Positions 8,041 through 62,800 of a DNA stretch of 64,000 bases are shown here, piece by piece. Position 1 is the stretch's first letter. Every line of letters begins with the position of its first letter. The position numbers and the translations under genes are program-made. Origin of the DNA: an uncultured Deferribacteres bacterium (GTDB taxonomy: Bacteria; Zhuqueibacterota; JdFR-76; DREG01); NCBI GenBank assembly GCA_913009825.1, contig CAJVYQ010000004.1, forward strand, positions 62,001 to 126,000, in the 5' to 3' direction. Under the pieces are notes generated by a model, which searched no databases, was not told the DNA's origin, and saw only the letters and a program-made list of their open reading frames with translations.

Positions 8041-8649
8041 ATGATATATTTTGATCATCAGTCAACATCGCCAACCGATCCGCGTGTTGTGGATGTTATG
8101 CCGCCCTATTTTTCAGAGCATTTCGGCAATTCGCAAGCCCGGTTTGTCAACGGGGAGCAGCCCCGGCAGGCAATTCAGGAAAACAGGAAACGCGCCGGTA
8201 CGGAAAATGTGTCCGGCATCATTAGTATGGGCAAAGCCGCGGAAATGCCGCCGCGGCTGGAAAAAATTTCACAATTGGGAAAGATGCTGATCGAATGGGT
8301 TCAAAAAAAAATAACTAAAGTGCATTTAACCGGTCACCCGGAGAAAAGATTGCCCGGTCATGCCGGTTTTTGCTTTGAATTTGTGGAAGGGGAGCCCGTG
8401 CTGCTGTTTCTCCCGGCTCAGGGAATTGAAGTAGCCAACGGTTCAACCTGTTCTTCTCAGGATTTAAAGGCCTCACATGTTTTGATGGCGCTTGGCGCGG
8501 GAGATTTGTTAACACAGTGTTCTTTGTTGTTTTCCCCCGGCAAAGAAAACAGGGAGGCAGAAGAGACAATATTTCTGGAAAAATTGCCGTCGGTAGTTGA
8601 CCGGTTACGCAGCATGTCACCGGTGCATGAAGGATTCGATTATAATTAG
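8041..8649 (+). CDS. Internally deleted cysteine desulfurase (NifS/IscS)-like protein lacking the PLP-binding core
   Basis: N-term MIYFDHQSTSPTDPRVVDVMPPYF joins directly to GTENVSGIISMGKAAEM and the C-terminal Cys loop NGSTCSSQDLKASHVLMALG; PLP-lysine region absent. Confidence 0.8.
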   Translation: MIYFDHQSTSPTDPRVVDVMPPYFSEHFGNSQARFVNGEQPRQAIQENRKRAGTENVSGIISMGKAAEMPPRLEKISQLGKMLIEWVQKKITKVHLTGHPEKRLPGHAGFCFEFVEGEPVLLFLPAQGIEVANGSTCSSQDLKASHVLMALGAGDLLTQCSLLFSPGKENREAEETIFLEKLPSVVDRLRSMSPVHEGFDYN

Positions 8650-8779
8650 TGTCTGAACGAAAAGTGGAAAACATGCATCTTGCTTGTTTTATAAACTGTT
8701 TAGTTTCCTTCTTTTCAATAAGATTATAATTCAAACAAGATGTTTGATATACAATTTAGATACTTTTCGTTCAGGCACT
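8648..8779. mobile_element. F1 MITE-like element, copy A (132 bp)
   Basis: TIR AGTGTCTGAACGAAAAGT...ACTTTTCGTTCAGGCACT, flanked by TSD AATT (8644-8647, 8780-8783); near-identical to 27692-27823. Confidence 0.92.
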
Positions 8780-16899: not shown

Positions 16900-17039
16900 G
16901 TAACTACTCAGGTTCCCGGTTCAGAAGTTCATGGTTCAGAGGTTAACAACACAAATACATAAAAAGCGTAAAAGGATTCTAACAGGTCTGCCGCGGGCAG
17001 GGAACTTTGAACTATGAACCTGTTAGCCTGAGTAGTTAC
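16900..17039. mobile_element. F2 MITE-like element (140 bp)
   Basis: TIR GTAACTACTCAGG...CCTGAGTAGTTAC; perfect 8-bp TSD AATTTATG (16892-16899, 17040-17047). Confidence 0.9.
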
Positions 17040-17600: not shown

Positions 17601-17719
17601 AGTGTCTGACCGAAAACTCGAGGAATCTGTATGTTACAATAACTTAAAGGGTTAAACAGATTTCTCTCCGCCTTTTGGCGGATCGAAATGATAAAAAAGT
17701 GTATTTTCGTTCAGACACT
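17601..17719. mobile_element. F1 MITE-like element, copy C (119 bp), within the aldolase pseudogene
   Basis: AGTGTCTGACCGAAAA...TTTTCGTTCAGACACT; perfect TSD AAAT (17597-17600, 17720-17723). Confidence 0.92.
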
Positions 17720-18389: not shown

Positions 18390-21236
18390 TTATTTTTCCT
18401 GACCCCGTTTTTTTAAATCAGCTATCTTCTTTGCCAAACCCGGAGCATTAGGATTGATTTTTAATGCGATTTCAAATTGTTGAATTGCATGATCCGGATC
18501 GCCGGTTTTGAGGAAAAGATTACCGAGTAAAATTCGTTCGTCAAAATATTTTGGCTTGATTGTCAATCCGTCTTTGAGGATTGAAATTGCTCCTTCCGTT
18601 GTTTTTCCACTTTTCGATAAAAGTTCTCCCAGTATAAAACATGCATTTGCATCGCGTGGATTAAGTTCATGTACTTTTTTGAATATTTTAATGGCATTTT
18701 TAAAATCTTGCATCTCGATATACAATTTACCCAAATTAATATGTGCATAGATATTTTCGGGGTCTCGATCCAAAATATTATAATATTCTTTGGCGGCGTT
18801 GTCGTAATCTTTCAATGAAGTGTACAATCGTCCCAGATAAATCCGAGAGTAGAGATTGCCCGGATCAAGCTTCATAACGGTTTTAAATTCCCGAACGGCT
18901 TTTTCTTTTTCATCGGTTTCCGCACAAAGTTGACCCAATTCCAAATGAGCGGAAACATTAGACGGATCAATTTTTAAAATGGCATCAAATTCCTGCTTTG
19001 CTTTTTCCTTATTTTTCATAATTGAATAGATGTTGCCAAGGTTGTGATGTGCATCGACATTTGTTGGTTCCAGACTGATTACTTCCTCAAATTCCTTTTT
19101 GGCTTTTTGATATTCTTTTTTGTTGATGTAGATATTTGCCAAATTAAAATGAACGCCAATTATTTTTTCCTTTTCCGATTCAAGAGGGAGCACTGCTTTA
19201 AATTTTACTTCTGCTTTGTCCAATTCTTTCTTGTTTAGATAAACACTGCCCAAATTGAAAAGTACGTCCATATTTTTTGGGTCCAGTTTGATCGCAGTTT
19301 CAAATTGTTCTTCCGCCTTGTCGTATTCTTTCATTCTTAAATAGAGGCTTCCCAGATCGTTGTGAACAATAGGGTTTTTCGGGTCCAGTTTTACTACGGC
19401 TTTAAATTCATTTTCTGCTTTTTGGTATTCTTTTTTATTTGCGTATAATGTCCCCAATGAATAGTGGGAGTACGTGCTCCTTGGATTGAGTTTTAATGAC
19501 TTCAAATATTTTTTTTCGGCATTGTCGAAAAGTCTAAATTGCTCAAAAATTCTTCCGCTTCTGAAATAATTATAGTCATCCAGAAATCTTTCATGGATAA
19601 TTCTCTTCTCATTTGGTTTGATATTCACAAATTCGGGAATATTGGCGCCGCGATCTTCATTCAACGGTGTGAAATTACGCAAGAGTACGGGGGGCGTATC
19701 ATTGCCATTTTCATCGATGTGAGTTAAAAAAAGCTGTGTATTCGGAGAAAAGACCTTGGAAGAAAATACCAGCCATTTGCTATTGGGCGACCAGCTATGC
19801 CAGGAATTCATTCTATTGGTGTTGCAATTCATTAACCTGGGTTTTCCTCCTTTTGCCGGTATAATGTAAAGCTTGCTATCCGGTTGAAGTAGCATAAAAC
19901 TGTGTGCCTGTGTGAAAACCATCCATTTACCGTCGGGAGAAAATTTAGGGAAGTAATTGCTCATACCGTTATTTGATGCGCCTTCGATTGGTTCGGCTTT
20001 TCCGCCTTTTCCATGATTAAATGGTACTCTGTACAGACTGTACATGAATTTTTTATTTGTCTCCTGCGGCTTTTCCAAAAATTCTTCGCCGCCTAACGCT
20101 TCTATCGATTCCTCTTTGTTAAGGATGATTCCCTTAAATTTATCTCCTTTCGCTTTCAATTTTACGGCACGATTTTTTGCAAAAACCACGTTTTTTCCAT
20201 CCGGTGTCCAAACGCCATCGGCCTGGACATAATCTTCGTCATCAGCACCGGCAAGAGCGTGTATCTCTCCGGTTTGATGATCATAATAGGCTAATATTCC
20301 CATCACGGGAAAGAAAATTTGTGAAAATAGAATATCCCTTCTCGGTAGAAAAACGGATCGGTCTTTAACGCCGCTTATCACATATCTGCCGTCCGGTGAA
20401 ACTCTCGGCAGCATGCCAAATGTAGGTATATCCGGAACAAAATTTGACCAACTGATCAATTTATCCCGTGAAAAAACGGTTTCTTTGTCGAATGAAGTCA
20501 ATATGTAGGCACCTTTATCGTTACCAACATCAACATCCATCCCCAATATTTTGCCATTGGCAGAAAAGGAATGGCAGTTACCGCAGACCGGCAAGTCGGT
20601 AAGCACTATTGGCGGTGGATCGTACGAGGAGATATTACCCAGACGCCATCTGATTTTGTCTACATTTTTAAGCGCTATGCTGAAAGGCAATGGAACATCG
20701 CGATAAAAAATTGGGGCGGCTACGGAGTCTTTAGAGGTTGAAAAATAGACTGTTCCTTTTGATATTTTCTTTTCTATTCCGGCAGTTGATTTTAAACCAT
20801 AAATAGTAATCGATGCTCTCTTTTCCAATGATCTTTGTTTCATCGTTTCCCATAAATTTCTTTCCGGCATCCATTCAGTCGTGTCAACTTCAACTTTTAT
20901 GGGAGGTTCATTATCATTGAACCTGGCGACAATTTGCCATTTGTTGATTTTCTGTTTTGTATCTCTCCAGATAAATTCGGGAGCAATGATGTCCGGGGGA
21001 AAAACAGAATTATTGAATGGATAAACAAAGGCTATTTCTCCTGATATAGGCCAAAATAGTTCCGACGCAATGAAAACAGAAACAACAACGGAAATAAGGA
21101 TGACGAAAATAGTGATAATTGATTTTGCCCGGGGTTTTGGGGTTGCCAATGTTCCTTCCAAATTTTTACTTTTATCTTTTTTCTGCTTTTTTCCTCCCTG
21201 TCGTTTGTCACGTCTATTCTTTCTTGCTTGTGACAT
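18390..21236 (-). CDS. Membrane-anchored PD40 (TolB-like) beta-propeller / TPR protein with a CxxCH motif
   Basis: N-terminal TM; VCGNCHSFSANG; SPDGRYVISG, SPDGKWMVFTQ, SPNSKWLVFSS; about 10 TPR units. Confidence 0.88.
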   Translation of the reverse strand: MSQARKNRRDKRQGGKKQKKDKSKNLEGTLATPKPRAKSIITIFVILISVVVSVFIASELFWPISGEIAFVYPFNNSVFPPDIIAPEFIWRDTKQKINKWQIVARFNDNEPPIKVEVDTTEWMPERNLWETMKQRSLEKRASITIYGLKSTAGIEKKISKGTVYFSTSKDSVAAPIFYRDVPLPFSIALKNVDKIRWRLGNISSYDPPPIVLTDLPVCGNCHSFSANGKILGMDVDVGNDKGAYILTSFDKETVFSRDKLISWSNFVPDIPTFGMLPRVSPDGRYVISGVKDRSVFLPRRDILFSQIFFPVMGILAYYDHQTGEIHALAGADDEDYVQADGVWTPDGKNVVFAKNRAVKLKAKGDKFKGIILNKEESIEALGGEEFLEKPQETNKKFMYSLYRVPFNHGKGGKAEPIEGASNNGMSNYFPKFSPDGKWMVFTQAHSFMLLQPDSKLYIIPAKGGKPRLMNCNTNRMNSWHSWSPNSKWLVFSSKVFSPNTQLFLTHIDENGNDTPPVLLRNFTPLNEDRGANIPEFVNIKPNEKRIIHERFLDDYNYFRSGRIFEQFRLFDNAEKKYLKSLKLNPRSTYSHYSLGTLYANKKEYQKAENEFKAVVKLDPKNPIVHNDLGSLYLRMKEYDKAEEQFETAIKLDPKNMDVLFNLGSVYLNKKELDKAEVKFKAVLPLESEKEKIIGVHFNLANIYINKKEYQKAKKEFEEVISLEPTNVDAHHNLGNIYSIMKNKEKAKQEFDAILKIDPSNVSAHLELGQLCAETDEKEKAVREFKTVMKLDPGNLYSRIYLGRLYTSLKDYDNAAKEYYNILDRDPENIYAHINLGKLYIEMQDFKNAIKIFKKVHELNPRDANACFILGELLSKSGKTTEGAISILKDGLTIKPKYFDERILLGNLFLKTGDPDHAIQQFEIALKINPNAPGLAKKIADLKKRGQEK

Positions 21237-21265
21237 GTTTCGTTCCTTTTTTTAATTAAAAATTC

Positions 21266-21516
21266 GTAACTGTTCAGGATACGATATTATTATATTGGAA
21301 GTTGTTCTACACCCCCGTACCCCCCTCAGGGACTATATAGTGTCTGTCCGAAAATACCCACGATATTATCATTCCGGCAATTTTTAAGCCGGAATCTACT
21401 TGAGGGCAGCAATGGATTCCCGCTAAAAGTATGCGGGAATGACAAATTCGGACAGACACTATATAGTCCCTGAGGGGGGTACGGGGGGTGTTTGCTCACA
21501 TTACCCGAATAGTTAC
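21266..21516. mobile_element. F2 MITE-like element with an F1 element nested at the centre of an internal palindrome
   Basis: GTAACTGTTCAGG...CCGAATAGTTAC, perfect 8-bp TSD AAAAATTC (21258-21265, 21517-21524). Confidence 0.9.
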
Positions 21517-22645
21517 AAAAATTCAAAGCAACTGCATCTACTTCAATTTCAAATAAAAGTTCATCCCGGCAAACATCATTATTGCCGACAAGAACAATCG
21601 ATTGGGTTAATCCGTATTTTTTGCAGTATTTTGTTAATGCCGGAGCATCTTGACGGCGCTTAAAATAGGCAATTGCCCGCATCACATTAGAATAATTCAT
21701 ACAACGTGATTTCAAAATTGCTTCCACCACACGGAATGTTAAATCGATTTGCGCTTCAACATTATTTACGTGAACGGTATTGCCTGCCGAATCTATGCTG
21801 GCAGTGCCCGAAATGATGAGGTGACGGTGATCCGGCATCAAAACTTCGACGGCTCTGCTGAAAGAACTTTTATAATAATAAGCGGAACACTGTAACGGAG
21901 ATGTAACTTCCTTAATCTTTACGTTTTGACTGTGGGGTTTTATGGCAATTGCCCCGGCAATCAAAGCTGAATGATTCGGATTGTCACCGCCGATTCCCGT
22001 ACTGGCAGGCAAAAACCGATCGAAAATATGTTTTTCTTTGTATATTTTACTTCTTATCGAATTAAATTCCTTGTACCATTCCGGAATGTTTTCGTTGAAA
22101 AACCACGTGCGAACAAGGTCGGTCATTTCCATTCCGGCAGACTGCAAGGCTGTTTCCATTTTTCCCAAAGTCTGTTCTGTTTGCACTTCTCGAGTCTCTG
22201 TAGTATTTGCTGAATGGAGATTACCCAAAAAACAACATTTGGCGTAATCATTGTCAAAAACAGATCCTACCGGTATGCTATTCAAACGAATCGTTTTCAC
22301 CGCAACTCCTGAAACAGCATAAATTTGCATACCTGCGATCTTATGATTGAAGCAGCTTTTTCCGTCGATATAATTAACAGGCCGGTTTATAGATGGGAAT
22401 GTGTTTATCAGGGCGTCTCTGCATTCCCGGAAAAATGCAATCGCTCCCAGGACGTCCATCTTTACAATTTTGGCTTTCTGTTCGGCTAAATAATTTGCCG
22501 GTCGTTCAAATAGTGATAGAATCGATTCATTTGAAACCTGTTTGACAGTCAAATAATATTCGGTTATTTTTTCCCCTTGAATAGTTGTGCCATGCATTCC
22601 GGTTTTGTCAAATTCAGCAATTTTTGTCTGCGTTCTCGTTTCCAT
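21326..22645 (-). CDS. RidA-fold / chorismatase (FkbO/Hyg5)-like enzyme; last 63 codons are mobile-element-derived
   Basis: LVRTWFFNENIPEWYKEFNSIR, LPASTGIGGDNPNHSALIAGAIAI, HRHLIISGTASID; downstream of ALNF the frame runs into F2/F1 sequence. Confidence 0.72.
   Translation of the reverse strand: METRTQTKIAEFDKTGMHGTTIQGEKITEYYLTVKQVSNESILSLFERPANYLAEQKAKIVKMDVLGAIAFFRECRDALINTFPSINRPVNYIDGKSCFNHKIAGMQIYAVSGVAVKTIRLNSIPVGSVFDNDYAKCCFLGNLHSANTTETREVQTEQTLGKMETALQSAGMEMTDLVRTWFFNENIPEWYKEFNSIRSKIYKEKHIFDRFLPASTGIGGDNPNHSALIAGAIAIKPHSQNVKIKEVTSPLQCSAYYYKSSFSRAVEVLMPDHRHLIISGTASIDSAGNTVHVNNVEAQIDLTFRVVEAILKSRCMNYSNVMRAIAYFKRRQDAPALTKYCKKYGLTQSIVLVGNNDVCRDELLFEIEVDAVALNFCNYSGNVSKHPPYPPQGLYSVCPNLSFPHTFSGNPLLPSSRFRLKNCRNDNIVGIFGQTLYSP
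21339..21460. mobile_element. F1 element nested in the F2 element (122 bp)
   Basis: AGTGTCTGTCCGAA...TTCGGACAGACACT with TSD ATAT (21335-21338, 21461-21464). Confidence 0.88.
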
Positions 22646-22673: not shown

Positions 22674-24548
22674 CTAATCTTTGGTTATCTCGAATTTAAC
22701 TTTTCTTGTTTTCTTCTGAAAGGATAATTTATCTTTTATCTTCACAAACAGTTCGTAATCCCCCTCTTTCAATTTGGAAATGTCGATGCTGTATTGCTCG
22801 CTCCTGCGCGGTTTGTCGGTTTCCAATTCGTAAGAAAGGCTGATACTGTTTTCTTTTTCCTTTTTATTTTTTTCGCTGCCGGAAGCGCCAATCTCAATAG
22901 AGTAGTATGCTTTCCCTTTTTTATCCTGTTGCAGATGGTAAATTTCGAAGTAGATCGTAATCGGATTGTTACGCCAGAATTGCCGAACCGGGTACACCGG
23001 GAATGAGTACTCGGAAGTTTTTTTCGCCTCGATTCCCAAAATCAGGTCGCTCAATTCAAGAGAATCCGGCGCTCTGCTCAACGGTGGGGAGATATGCAGG
23101 ATCTTTCTGCCGTTGGCCAGAATGGTATCTGCCTTGCTCCGGTAAGCTTCCGCAGCAAAAGTGCCGTGAAAAATATCCGGAGTATGTTCAAACTGGAAAA
23201 CGGAAGAATTGACCACACTACCAAAATAGAGTTTGGTTTTCCGGTAAATCTCCTTCATTTCCCGGTTTCTGATGATGAAAGTACTCAAAAGTTTGTATTC
23301 CGGCGCTTTGTATTCTTTCTTGTCCTGCCGGGTGTAATGCTTGCTTTCAAATTGCGGCGCTGTAGAAGCGACAACAGTCAGTTTCGGTTGACCGGCCCGG
23401 GAAAGTGACCGGATTTGAAATGCGGCAATGTCGATAGGGTTGATTTTTTCTTCATATTCGGATCGTTCCGGGTTGGCATATTTTCTGACCGGGTTGAACC
23501 GGTCGATATTTTTGTTAGCATAGAAAATTTGGCTGATCATATCGATATACGCTTTACGCAGAGACGGCGACTTTCTGCCGGCCAGTTCTCTGGATTCAAA
23601 TATCTGTTCATATCTGCTGTAGCGGTCGTAAAAATATTCACTGAATTCTTTCAATTCCGCATAATAGATGATGAGACAAACCGCGCGGAATTCTGCCGCA
23701 TCGATCCCGCCGCGCCGGGGAACCAAATATTCGACACATGGCTGCAAACCGTACTCGCCAGCTCCTTCCCGGTAGGAGAAGAGAAAAACAGCCGGTTCTT
23801 TAGTGCCAATCGTTTCGTATGACCAAACTTCATATTGTGGTGTCGGATCATCTAATAGTGACGTTCTGGTGTAACCCCATCTCATCAGTTCGATTTTGCT
23901 CATGGAAGAGGAACCCAGGTTGCCGCGCTGTTTTCTGTCCGGTTCGCCGTATTTGACGTAGATGGTACCCCGGTCATCGGTGCGGTACGGGCTGATCCGG
24001 TTTTTCAGATAATGCTCCCGGGCATAAGCGATGCGCTGCCAATGTTCAATCAATCTTTCATTGCTTTTTGTAGTGGGTCTGAAATCGTGTTCGAACCAAA
24101 AACTCCGGATCAAAAATGAAAGGTGCGGATCGAACTGTTTGATCTCTTCCCGCCATTCTTTTATATCAGTTGCATCTACCAAAGGCAGGACTCTTTTTGC
24201 TTCGTCGATAACCATGTTCAAATATTTCCGGGAAGGAATTTTGGAAAATGACCACAGATAAATTTCGCTTGCCGAATCGTAATATTCTTTTGCCTTCTTT
24301 TTTGTGGCAAGTTCAATGAAAGCAATTCCCAGGCGCGGATCGGTTTTCCCGTTTTTTTCATAAGCCAATTTGCCCTGCCACCAGGCGTTCAAGGCTTCCT
24401 CCCATTTTCCATCTTGCAGTAATGCAAGGCCATTTTTATAGTAATCCGTCTCAAAACAGAAAGAAGATGACGGCGGATAGGAAAAGAGCGCAGCAAGGAT
24501 AAAAACAGTCTCTAAAAATCGAACAAATTTTCTTTTTGATTTTATCAT
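22674..24548 (-). CDS. GWxTD domain-containing secreted protein
   Basis: Signal-like MIKSKRKFVRFLETVFILAALFSYPPSSSFC; RTDDRGTIYVKYGEPDRKQRG; ORF extends to 24635 but the internal Met gives a better signal peptide. Confidence 0.75.
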   Translation of the reverse strand: MIKSKRKFVRFLETVFILAALFSYPPSSSFCFETDYYKNGLALLQDGKWEEALNAWWQGKLAYEKNGKTDPRLGIAFIELATKKKAKEYYDSASEIYLWSFSKIPSRKYLNMVIDEAKRVLPLVDATDIKEWREEIKQFDPHLSFLIRSFWFEHDFRPTTKSNERLIEHWQRIAYAREHYLKNRISPYRTDDRGTIYVKYGEPDRKQRGNLGSSSMSKIELMRWGYTRTSLLDDPTPQYEVWSYETIGTKEPAVFLFSYREGAGEYGLQPCVEYLVPRRGGIDAAEFRAVCLIIYYAELKEFSEYFYDRYSRYEQIFESRELAGRKSPSLRKAYIDMISQIFYANKNIDRFNPVRKYANPERSEYEEKINPIDIAAFQIRSLSRAGQPKLTVVASTAPQFESKHYTRQDKKEYKAPEYKLLSTFIIRNREMKEIYRKTKLYFGSVVNSSVFQFEHTPDIFHGTFAAEAYRSKADTILANGRKILHISPPLSRAPDSLELSDLILGIEAKKTSEYSFPVYPVRQFWRNNPITIYFEIYHLQQDKKGKAYYSIEIGASGSEKNKKEKENSISLSYELETDKPRRSEQYSIDISKLKEGDYELFVKIKDKLSFQKKTRKVKFEITKD

Positions 24549-24809
24549 ATCGGACACGCTTCGTTTGTTGGAGATGTAGAATTCAATAAAATATATAGCG
24601 TACTGAAAAGAAGATGCCACAAAAAAAACCGGCACTTAAAAAATTGGGATACAAGGCTAAGGTTTGAAGGGATCAAAATTAATTGTTACCGTTAATCAAC
24701 AAAATCATGAATGATTTCGTTCTAATCGCTATTTATTTTTTCTGTGTCGTCTTTTCTGCCACCGGTTATTTCTCTTCCGTTGCCGGTAATTGGATGCCGG
24801 ATTCCTCTT

Positions 24810-59855: not shown

Positions 59856-62800
59856 TTGATTACTATTAGAAAAGATTTTAGCAAAGGAATCTCAAAAAAA
59901 TATAGCCGGTTTTCAATCGGGCTGGCTTCGCCGGATCGCATTTTGGAGAAATCCAGAGGCGAAGTTTTAAAACCGGAAACGATCAATTACCGCTCCTATA
60001 AGCCGGAAAAAGACGGCTTATTCTGTGAAAAAATATTTGGTCCGGTAAAGGACTACGAATGTCATTGCGGAAAATACAAAAGAATCCGTTACAAAGGAAT
60101 CGTGTGTGACAGATGCGGTGTTGAAGTGACCACAAAAAGTGTACGCCGGGAACGTATGGGGCATATCTCTCTTGCAGTGCCGGTTGTGCATATCTGGTTT
60201 TGGAAATCTTTACCGTCTAAAATAAGTTATATTCTCGGGATATCGATTAAGAATCTCGAGCGAATTATTTATTACGAAGCGTATGTTGTTATTAATCCCG
60301 GAAAATCGGAATTAAAAGAAAAAGAGCTCATTGAAGAAGATGAGTATTATCGCATTTTGAGTGAGTTGGACCGGGATGATGAAAATCCCTTTATCGCTAA
60401 AACGGGCGGTGAAGCGATTTTGGAAATGCTTCGTCATGTAGACGTGAATAAATTGTCTACCACACTACGTGAAAGAGCAAAGATAGAAACCTCTATGCAG
60501 CGAAAAGCCGATAATTTGAAGCGTTTGAAAGTGATTGAAGCATTCAAACAAAAAGATGATCACCGTTTCAACAAACCGGAATGGATGGTTTTGACTGCAT
60601 TGCCGGTGATTCCTCCCGAATTACGTCCGCTGGTGCCTCTGGAGGGCGGCCGGTTTGCGACTTCGGATCTGAACGACCTCTACCGCCGTGTAATTATTCG
60701 CAACAATCGTCTTAAAAAATTGATTGAAATTAAAGCGCCGGAAGTCATTTTAAAGAATGAAAAACGGATGCTGCAGGAGGCGGTGGATTCACTTCTTGAT
60801 AATGGCAGAAAAAGCGTAGCTGTGCGTGGTGATGGCAACCGGGCTTTGAAATCCCTTTCCGACATGTTAAAAGGAAAACAGGGAAGATTTCGTCAGAATC
60901 TGCTTGGCAAGCGTATCGATTATTCCGGCCGGTCGGTAATTGTAGTAGGGCCCGAATTGAAAATTCATGAATGTGGTCTGCCTAAAGATATGGCGTTGGA
61001 ATTGTTTAAACCATTTGTGATCAATAAGTTGGTTGAGCGTGGTTTGGTAAAGACAGTGAAGAGCGCCAAAAAACTGGTGGAGAAAAAAGGACCGGAAGTC
61101 TGGGACATCCTTGAGGAGATTATCGAAGACCATCCGGTGATGTTAAACAGGGCACCCACACTGCACCGGTTGGGTATTCAGGCCTTTCAACCCATTCTTG
61201 TAGAGGGAAAAGCGCTGCGTATACATCCGTTGGTTTGTTCCGCTTTTAATGCTGATTTTGACGGTGACCAGATGGCGGTTCATGTTCCTCTCTCATTTGA
61301 AGCCCGGGTTGAAACATCCATTTTGATGCTTTCAAGCCACAATATTTTGTCCCCGGCAAATGGAAAACCACTGGCCATCCCCAGCCAGGATATGGTTATA
61401 GGCTATTATTATCTGACCAAAGCAAAAGACGGCGATATTGGGGAAGGTTGTTTATTCAGCTCCGTAGATGAAGTGTTGGTGGCTTATCACAATGAAAAGG
61501 TTGGTTTACATGCCAAGATTAAAGTTCAGTTGGATGGTAAGCTTGTAGAGACCACTACCGGCAGAATTATTTTTAACCAGTATGTTCCCAAAGAATTGGG
61601 TTTCATTAACGAGTTGCTAACCAAGAAACGAATCGAGGAAATTGTTGGCGATGCCTTTCTCAAATTAGGCAATTACGGCACGGTGCAATTTCTGGATAAA
61701 TTGAAAGAGATCGGTTTTTACTATTCGACGAAATCCGGCGTCTCCATCGGTATGGTGGATGTGGAAATTCCTAAAGAAAAAGATGAAATGATTTTGAATG
61801 CTTATGATCGCGTGGAAAAAATACAAAATCGTTATGAAAAAGGCGTCATCACTGACGGAGAACGCTACAATCAGATTATCGATATCTGGACAAACGCAAC
61901 CAATGCCGTTGCGGAAAGTATGTTTGAACATCTCAAGGTATCCAGATCGGGATTTAATCCCCTTTTCATGATGGCGGATTCCGGTGCCCGTGGTTCGAAA
62001 GAGCAGATTCGTCAGCTTGCCGGTATGCGTGGCTTGATGGCGAAACCGCAAAAGAAAATGACCGGCTCCATGGGAGAGATCATCGAATCGCCAATCACGG
62101 CAAATTTTAAAGAAGGATTATCCGTGTTGGAGTATTTTATTTCCACACACGGTGCGCGAAAAGGTTTGGCGGATACGGCCTTAAAAACAGCCGACGCCGG
62201 ATACTTAACCCGCAGGCTGGTTGATGTGGCCCAGGACGTTACTATTACCATCGATGACTGCGGTACCATTATGGGCCTAAGAATTGGCGATTTGAAAGAA
62301 GGTGAAGATATTATCGAGCCGCTGCGTGACCGTATTTTAGGCCGGGTGGCCGTGGAAGATGTTTATGATCCTGAAACCAGCGGAATTTTTGTAGAGTCGG
62401 GAACGCTAATCACCGAAGAAATTGCCGATCAAATATCGAATGCCGGCATCGAATCGGTTTATATTCGTTCGGTTCTCACTTGTGAAGCACCGCGAGGTGT
62501 TTGCGCTATGTGCTACGGCCGTAATCTGGCCAATAACAAGAAGGTGGAAGCCGGCGAGGCTGTTGGGGTGATGGCTGCGCAGAGTATCGGTGAGCCGGGT
62601 ACTCAGTTGACGCTACGGACATTTCACATTGGTGGAACAGCCAGTCGTATAGCTGCGCAATCTCGAGCCGTGGCTAAATCGGATGGTGTAGTCGAATTTG
62701 AAAATCTGCGTTTGATTGAACAGATCGATGGCACCAAAATTACACTGCGCAGAAACGGCAAGATCAAAGTTGTGGATGAAAATAACCGGGTAACCTCCCA

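Follow-up and report, generated by a model that had tools for sequence, protein, structure and literature searches.

The gene for a chorismatase-fold protein on contig CAJVYQ010000004.1 of an uncultured Deferribacteres bacterium (assembly GCA_913009825.1) very probably acquired its present 3' end through two successive insertions of miniature inverted-repeat elements (MITEs), with a neutral or mildly harmful C-terminal tail as by-product and a functional effect that is likelier to lie with the RNA. The gene sits in a stretch of 64,000 nucleotides (positions 62,001 to 126,000 of the contig; the window), whose numbering is used below. The open reading frame (ORF), the outer element (F2) and the inner element (F1) were delimited as follows.

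21326-22645, minus strand: chorismatase-fold / RidA-like ORF in its present form, 439 aa plus TGA (ORF translation, PF01042, Foldseek).
21518-22645, minus strand: native protein portion, 376 codons, ending ALNF (homologue ends; model confidence below 50 from residue 377).
21329-21517, minus strand: 63-codon tail from mobile sequence, its first T being also the final base of the duplication; closed by TGA at 21326-21328 (ORF, reconstruction).
21266-21516, no strand: F2, outer miniature inverted-repeat element, 251 bp with F1 and 125 bp without, ends GTAACTGTTCAGG and GTAACTATTCGGG (repeat copies, end searches).
21258-21265, no strand: target-site duplication of F2, AAAAATTC, copy 1 (8/8 match).
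21517-21524, no strand: target-site duplication of F2, AAAAATTC, copy 2, holding the codons of the last two native residues, N-F (8/8 match).
21340-21459, no strand: F1, inner miniature inverted-repeat element, 120 bp, GTGTCTGTCC...GGACAGACAC (repeat copies elsewhere).
21334-21339, no strand: duplicated target of F1, TATATA, copy 1 (sequence).
21460-21465, no strand: duplicated target of F1, TATATA, copy 2 (sequence).

The frame at present reads ...VDAVALNF to residue 376, continues for 63 residues (CNYSGNVSKHPPYPPQGLYSVCPNLSFPHTFSGNPLLPSSRFRLKNCRNDNIVGIFGQTLYSP) and stops at TGA. The initial annotation had claimed that insertion of F2 removed a native stop codon, and this is borne out by the reconstruction, in which joining the flanks with a single AAAAATTC gives GCT TTG AAT TTT TAA and a 376-aa protein ending ALNF. 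The perfect 8-bp duplication that was said to bound the element is present (8 of 8 positions at 21258-21265 and 21517-21524), and both nested elements are, as had been described, open in the host frame for all 63 codons to the TGA; the coordinates given there hold as well. The further claim that F2 added 63 aa holds for the total length and fails for a single event: removal of F1 and one TATATA by script left a 125-bp F2 with a tail of 21 codons (CNYSGNVSKHPPYPPQGLYSP), and F1 with its duplication (126 bp, 42 codons) is in frame and free of stops, which takes the tail from 21 to 63 codons while the stop remains the same TGA.

The order of events suggested by this arrangement is that F2 came first. 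It would have inserted at AAAAATTC, a site that covers the final two codons and reaches one base into TAA; the codons for N and F would have been preserved because they lie inside the duplicated target, element sequence would have replaced the AA of the stop, and the frame would have run on to the TGA within F2. F1 would have inserted later at TATATA, the centre of the F2 palindrome, bringing the tail to its present length. We take F1 to be secondary because F2 copies without F1 occur elsewhere in the genome, relatives of this kind being found at G000:C30:45048-45183 (136 bp) and G000:C7:39742-39869 (128 bp). Could the structure instead be a misjoining of repeats, this being a draft genome in which contig ends often fall within such elements? 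Several contigs do begin about 110-310 bp from a copy of the element's end, but such an artefact is extremely unlikely, given perfect duplications at both levels (8 bp and 6 bp), which a chimeric join is not expected to yield, and a composite of F2 with F1 that is unique in the genome.

Both elements belong to populous families. F2 has inverted ends of the form GTAACT.TTC.GG; its copy in the window falls into a small sub-family marked by a C-rich palindrome, and several F2-type interiors share one end type, with recurring lengths of 160, 102 and 157 bp among others. When one mismatch at most was allowed, the end pattern GTAACTNTTCNGG was counted at 731 places in the 5.1-Mb genome versus 70 for the reversed control, and the exact end GTAACTATTCAGG 221 times versus 0; because these counts far exceed the control, the F2 ends are not a product of chance. 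In 58 related genomes the exact end was found 0-8 times per genome, versus the 221 of the source genome. A burst of miniature elements with GTAACTATTCAGG ends, specific to this lineage, was noted, with window copies at 16900-17039 and 21266-21516, and several contigs break within elements of this kind. Segments matching parts of the composite number 54 in the genome, mostly the inner part alone, which shows F1 to be a genuine element repeated on its own. Copies of F1 elsewhere are mostly 117-171 bp long, many of them between duplicated TANNTA (exact, 6/6, at several). This second family, with GTGTCTGTCC ends and inserting at TANNTA, has copies in the window at 8649-8778, 17602-17718 and 21340-21459.

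Unrelated non-autonomous MITEs are the best explanation for F2 and F1. Both have terminal inverted repeats and a length within the range of about 100-600 bp (125 bp for F2, or 251 bp with F1; 120 bp for F1), no transposase gene is present inside the composite, and copies are many (221 exact F2-type ends, dozens of F1 matches). The target-site duplication of the F2 type is constant at 8 bp, with 8 of 8 positions matching in 31 of the 37 elements surveyed, a survey that itself required 7/8 or better. No element longer than 600 bp with F2-type ends and exact 8-bp duplications was found in 0.95 Mb of the source genome.

As a mobiliser of F2 we considered IS66, which F2 resembles only in its GTAA ends and 8-bp duplications. 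The source genome gave no match to PF03050; 2 of 12 related genomes did, with no F2-type ends nearby, and relatives carrying F2-type ends in numbers lack the transposase. IS66 was rejected on these grounds. In the related genome G058, a 952-bp unit (L123 3001-3952) has GTAACTATTCAGGC-type ends, a 7/8 duplication and one GxxExxY / PDDEXK_3 gene (PF13366, 1.3e-20); this may be a gene that was captured, or else it hints at what moves F2-type elements. Genes of the GxxExxY or four-helix-bundle type were rejected as autonomous partners in the source genome, where none of the 12 loci examined is bounded by F2-type ends.

Gene extension is the exception in this genome. We surveyed about 0.95 Mb of the 5.1 Mb, demanding F2-type ends and 7/8 or 8/8 duplications, a rule that misses elements with decayed ends. 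Among 37 elements so defined there are 34 into which no ORF of at least 100 codons runs, and a single one, the window copy, lengthens a gene, which rejects systematic tail-making by the F2-type family. Among other placements, one element lies right at the stop codon of a 270-codon ORF (L131 8790-8902) and another truncates an ORF after 119 codons (L097 3851-4010).

The host protein matches PF01042 (5.8e-13, Pfam), and its top seven Foldseek matches are all chorismatases, including 5ag3, 5a3k and 4bps (E 6e-17 to 8e-16). Its score against the FkbO/Hyg5 chorismatase model TIGR04444 is 49.8 bits, below the curated cut-off of 325 bits, so we regard the protein, on fold and profile matches, as a chorismatase-fold protein and a distant relative of FkbO/Hyg5, with no substrate assigned. 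Hyg5 chorismatase has an acidic active-site residue near its C-terminus, Glu-334 (PMC7170507). In a 40-sequence alignment E366 and E368 of the host protein are invariant; both lie in the matching C-terminal strand, and either might be the counterpart of Glu-334. Dozens of invariant columns are common to the host protein and this alignment, and since these never-varying columns are kept, the native domain appears intact and does not look decayed.

A search of genome contigs with the host protein alone gave no match; a search with an alignment profile gave 80 homologues, 33-47% identical and mostly from Kiritimatiellia, Verrucomicrobia, Planctomycetota and Hydrogenedentota. Past the region of the conserved C-terminal LLFE motif these have 5-38 residues (median 7), with at most 21 in 79 of the 80, and the one homologue with 38 shows that the family has modest variation at its C-terminus. 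The host protein has 8 residues past the motif region at its native end and 71 at its extended end. In related genomes ten homologues were found, and these together with a short second copy of the gene in the source genome all (11/11) end no more than 10 residues past the aligned region. The element end sequence was found at none of the 80 homologue loci. Insertion-free orthologues encoding a homologous tail, which would have contradicted the proposed history, were thus sought and none was seen, all 80 homologues and all 11 of the second set stopping near the ALNF point. That the ancestral protein ended at ALNF, as first supposed from the letters, is well supported by these ends and by the reconstruction, the comparison being with distant homologues (33-47% identity). 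The gene at 21518-22645 resembles homologues from Kiritimatiellia and other PVC bacteria (up to 47% identity) more closely than it does homologues of its own phylum (about 30-35%), and it was not found in the two other genomes of the source's family; on these sequence comparisons it is a candidate for lateral transfer.

The tail itself has no Pfam match. AlphaFold (40 sequences) placed the native part mostly above 90 and residues 377-439 all below 50 in pLDDT, and the tail is accordingly predicted to be unstructured along its whole length. We speculated that the 63 residues might have been adopted, that is, translated, stable and selected as a functional extension of the enzyme. The frame is indeed open through both nested elements and was kept by the F1 event, yet an opening of this length asks for little: entry into the composite from its two ends, three frames each, yields runs of 24, 0, 39, 6, 0 and 62 codons until a stop is met, and with one of six frames reaching 62 codons a long open tail is not improbable. 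The predicted lack of structure, the lack of a family match, the position of this gene as the sole extension among 37 surveyed insertions and the lack of any homologue with such a tail also speak against adoption, and we consider it very unlikely. Being predicted unstructured, unique and of a length given by one of six entry frames, the tail is probably an unselected by-product. In the preferred two-insertion history the native domain would have stayed intact and the tail would be neutral or mildly harmful, near-neutrality being our assumption.

The effect on the RNA may matter more. The element lies between closely spaced genes on the same strand, and the following features bear on this point.

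22674-24635, minus strand: preceding gene, encoding a GWxTD-domain protein, 28 nt upstream of the host gene (ORFs, domain match).
18390-21236, minus strand: next gene, encoding a TPR/WD40-like protein, ATG at 21234-21236 (ORFs, Pfam).
21312-21487, minus strand: perfect 41-bp inverted repeat, arms 21312-21352 and 21447-21487, predicted to form a very stable mRNA hairpin that spans the tail-coding stretch (repeat search, RNA fold).

The GWxTD-domain gene, the host gene and the TPR/WD40-like gene form an apparent operon, in which the gap from the host gene to the TPR/WD40-like gene, counted from the sequence, is 19 nt from the ancestral TAA and 89 nt from the present TGA. The minus strand of 21258-21524 is predicted to fold at -139.2 kcal/mol, versus -67.3 +/- 4.8 kcal/mol for shuffled sequences (z -14.9). 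The hairpin had no Rfam match. Because so stable a hairpin lies in the same stretch of mRNA, poor or aborted translation of the tail is plausible, and a hairpin at this place in the apparent operon may matter more than the peptide: standing between the host gene and the next, it might hold up ribosomes, serve as a target of RNase III or alter downstream expression.

It is possible, if somewhat doubtful, that the full-length extended protein is not made at all, the hairpin being cut by RNase III or halting the ribosome, with a truncated or tagged product and an insertion that serves mainly as an element of RNA processing or polarity. This reading is compatible with the two-insertion history and differs on what the cell makes. 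It draws on the depth of the predicted fold, on the position between neighbouring genes, and on Correia elements, MITEs whose hairpins in mRNA are cut by RNase III (PMC10969869); a matching scenario was proposed for Coxiella EnhC (PMC5896051). Against it, a simple terminator scan found no intrinsic terminator. Translating ribosomes are, moreover, able to melt long hairpins. We regard as highly improbable a bolder combination of the two themes, in which selfish DNA gave rise, in two frame-preserving steps, to a new end of the protein, and the nested palindrome was kept because the extended 3' end with its hairpin adjusts the enzyme as well as the next gene of the operon. We retain the account of two successive MITE insertions, under which the tail may or may not be translated and RNA-level effects would be the likelier ones.

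That a small repeat can lengthen a gene at its 3' end has already been published for several bacteria. The RU-1 repeat at the 3' end of the amidase gene ECA3499 of Erwinia carotovora (Delihas 2007, PMC2759123) is the same kind of event, although it involves a single element of another family, whereas here two elements are nested and both duplications are still perfect. In Coxiella burnetii Dugway, QMITE2 at the 3' end of enhC adds an in-frame tail of 33 residues (Wachter et al. 2018), for which the authors put forward a non-stop scenario: RNase III cuts the mRNA, the ribosome then stalls and the product is degraded (PMC5896051). That case resembles ours in its in-frame MITE tail and stable mRNA stem; it differs in that a second strain there differs by an indel, whereas ours was read from one genome and has a second element inside the first. 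Rickettsia palindromic elements, as they are presented in PMC10969869 (citing Ogata et al. 2000, 2002), are likewise small, mobile and palindromic, and they keep the frame open where they lie in protein-coding genes; by that account they do so many times over, with a conserved peptide, in contrast to the one exception among 37 surveyed elements described here.

At the DNA level the gene carries a MITE-derived C-terminal extension, its stop lost by insertion and its element-encoded tail absent in homologues. Since the principle is already published and the event is an exception in the source genome, the general picture is unchanged; what this case adds is that one element sits inside another, that neither duplication has decayed and that the gain in codons can be worked out exactly. 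The two insertions and which of them came first, the destroyed stop codon and the codon count can all be read directly from the sequence, and this unusual legibility makes the gene well suited for asking whether tails that come from repeats are translated, degraded or tolerated.
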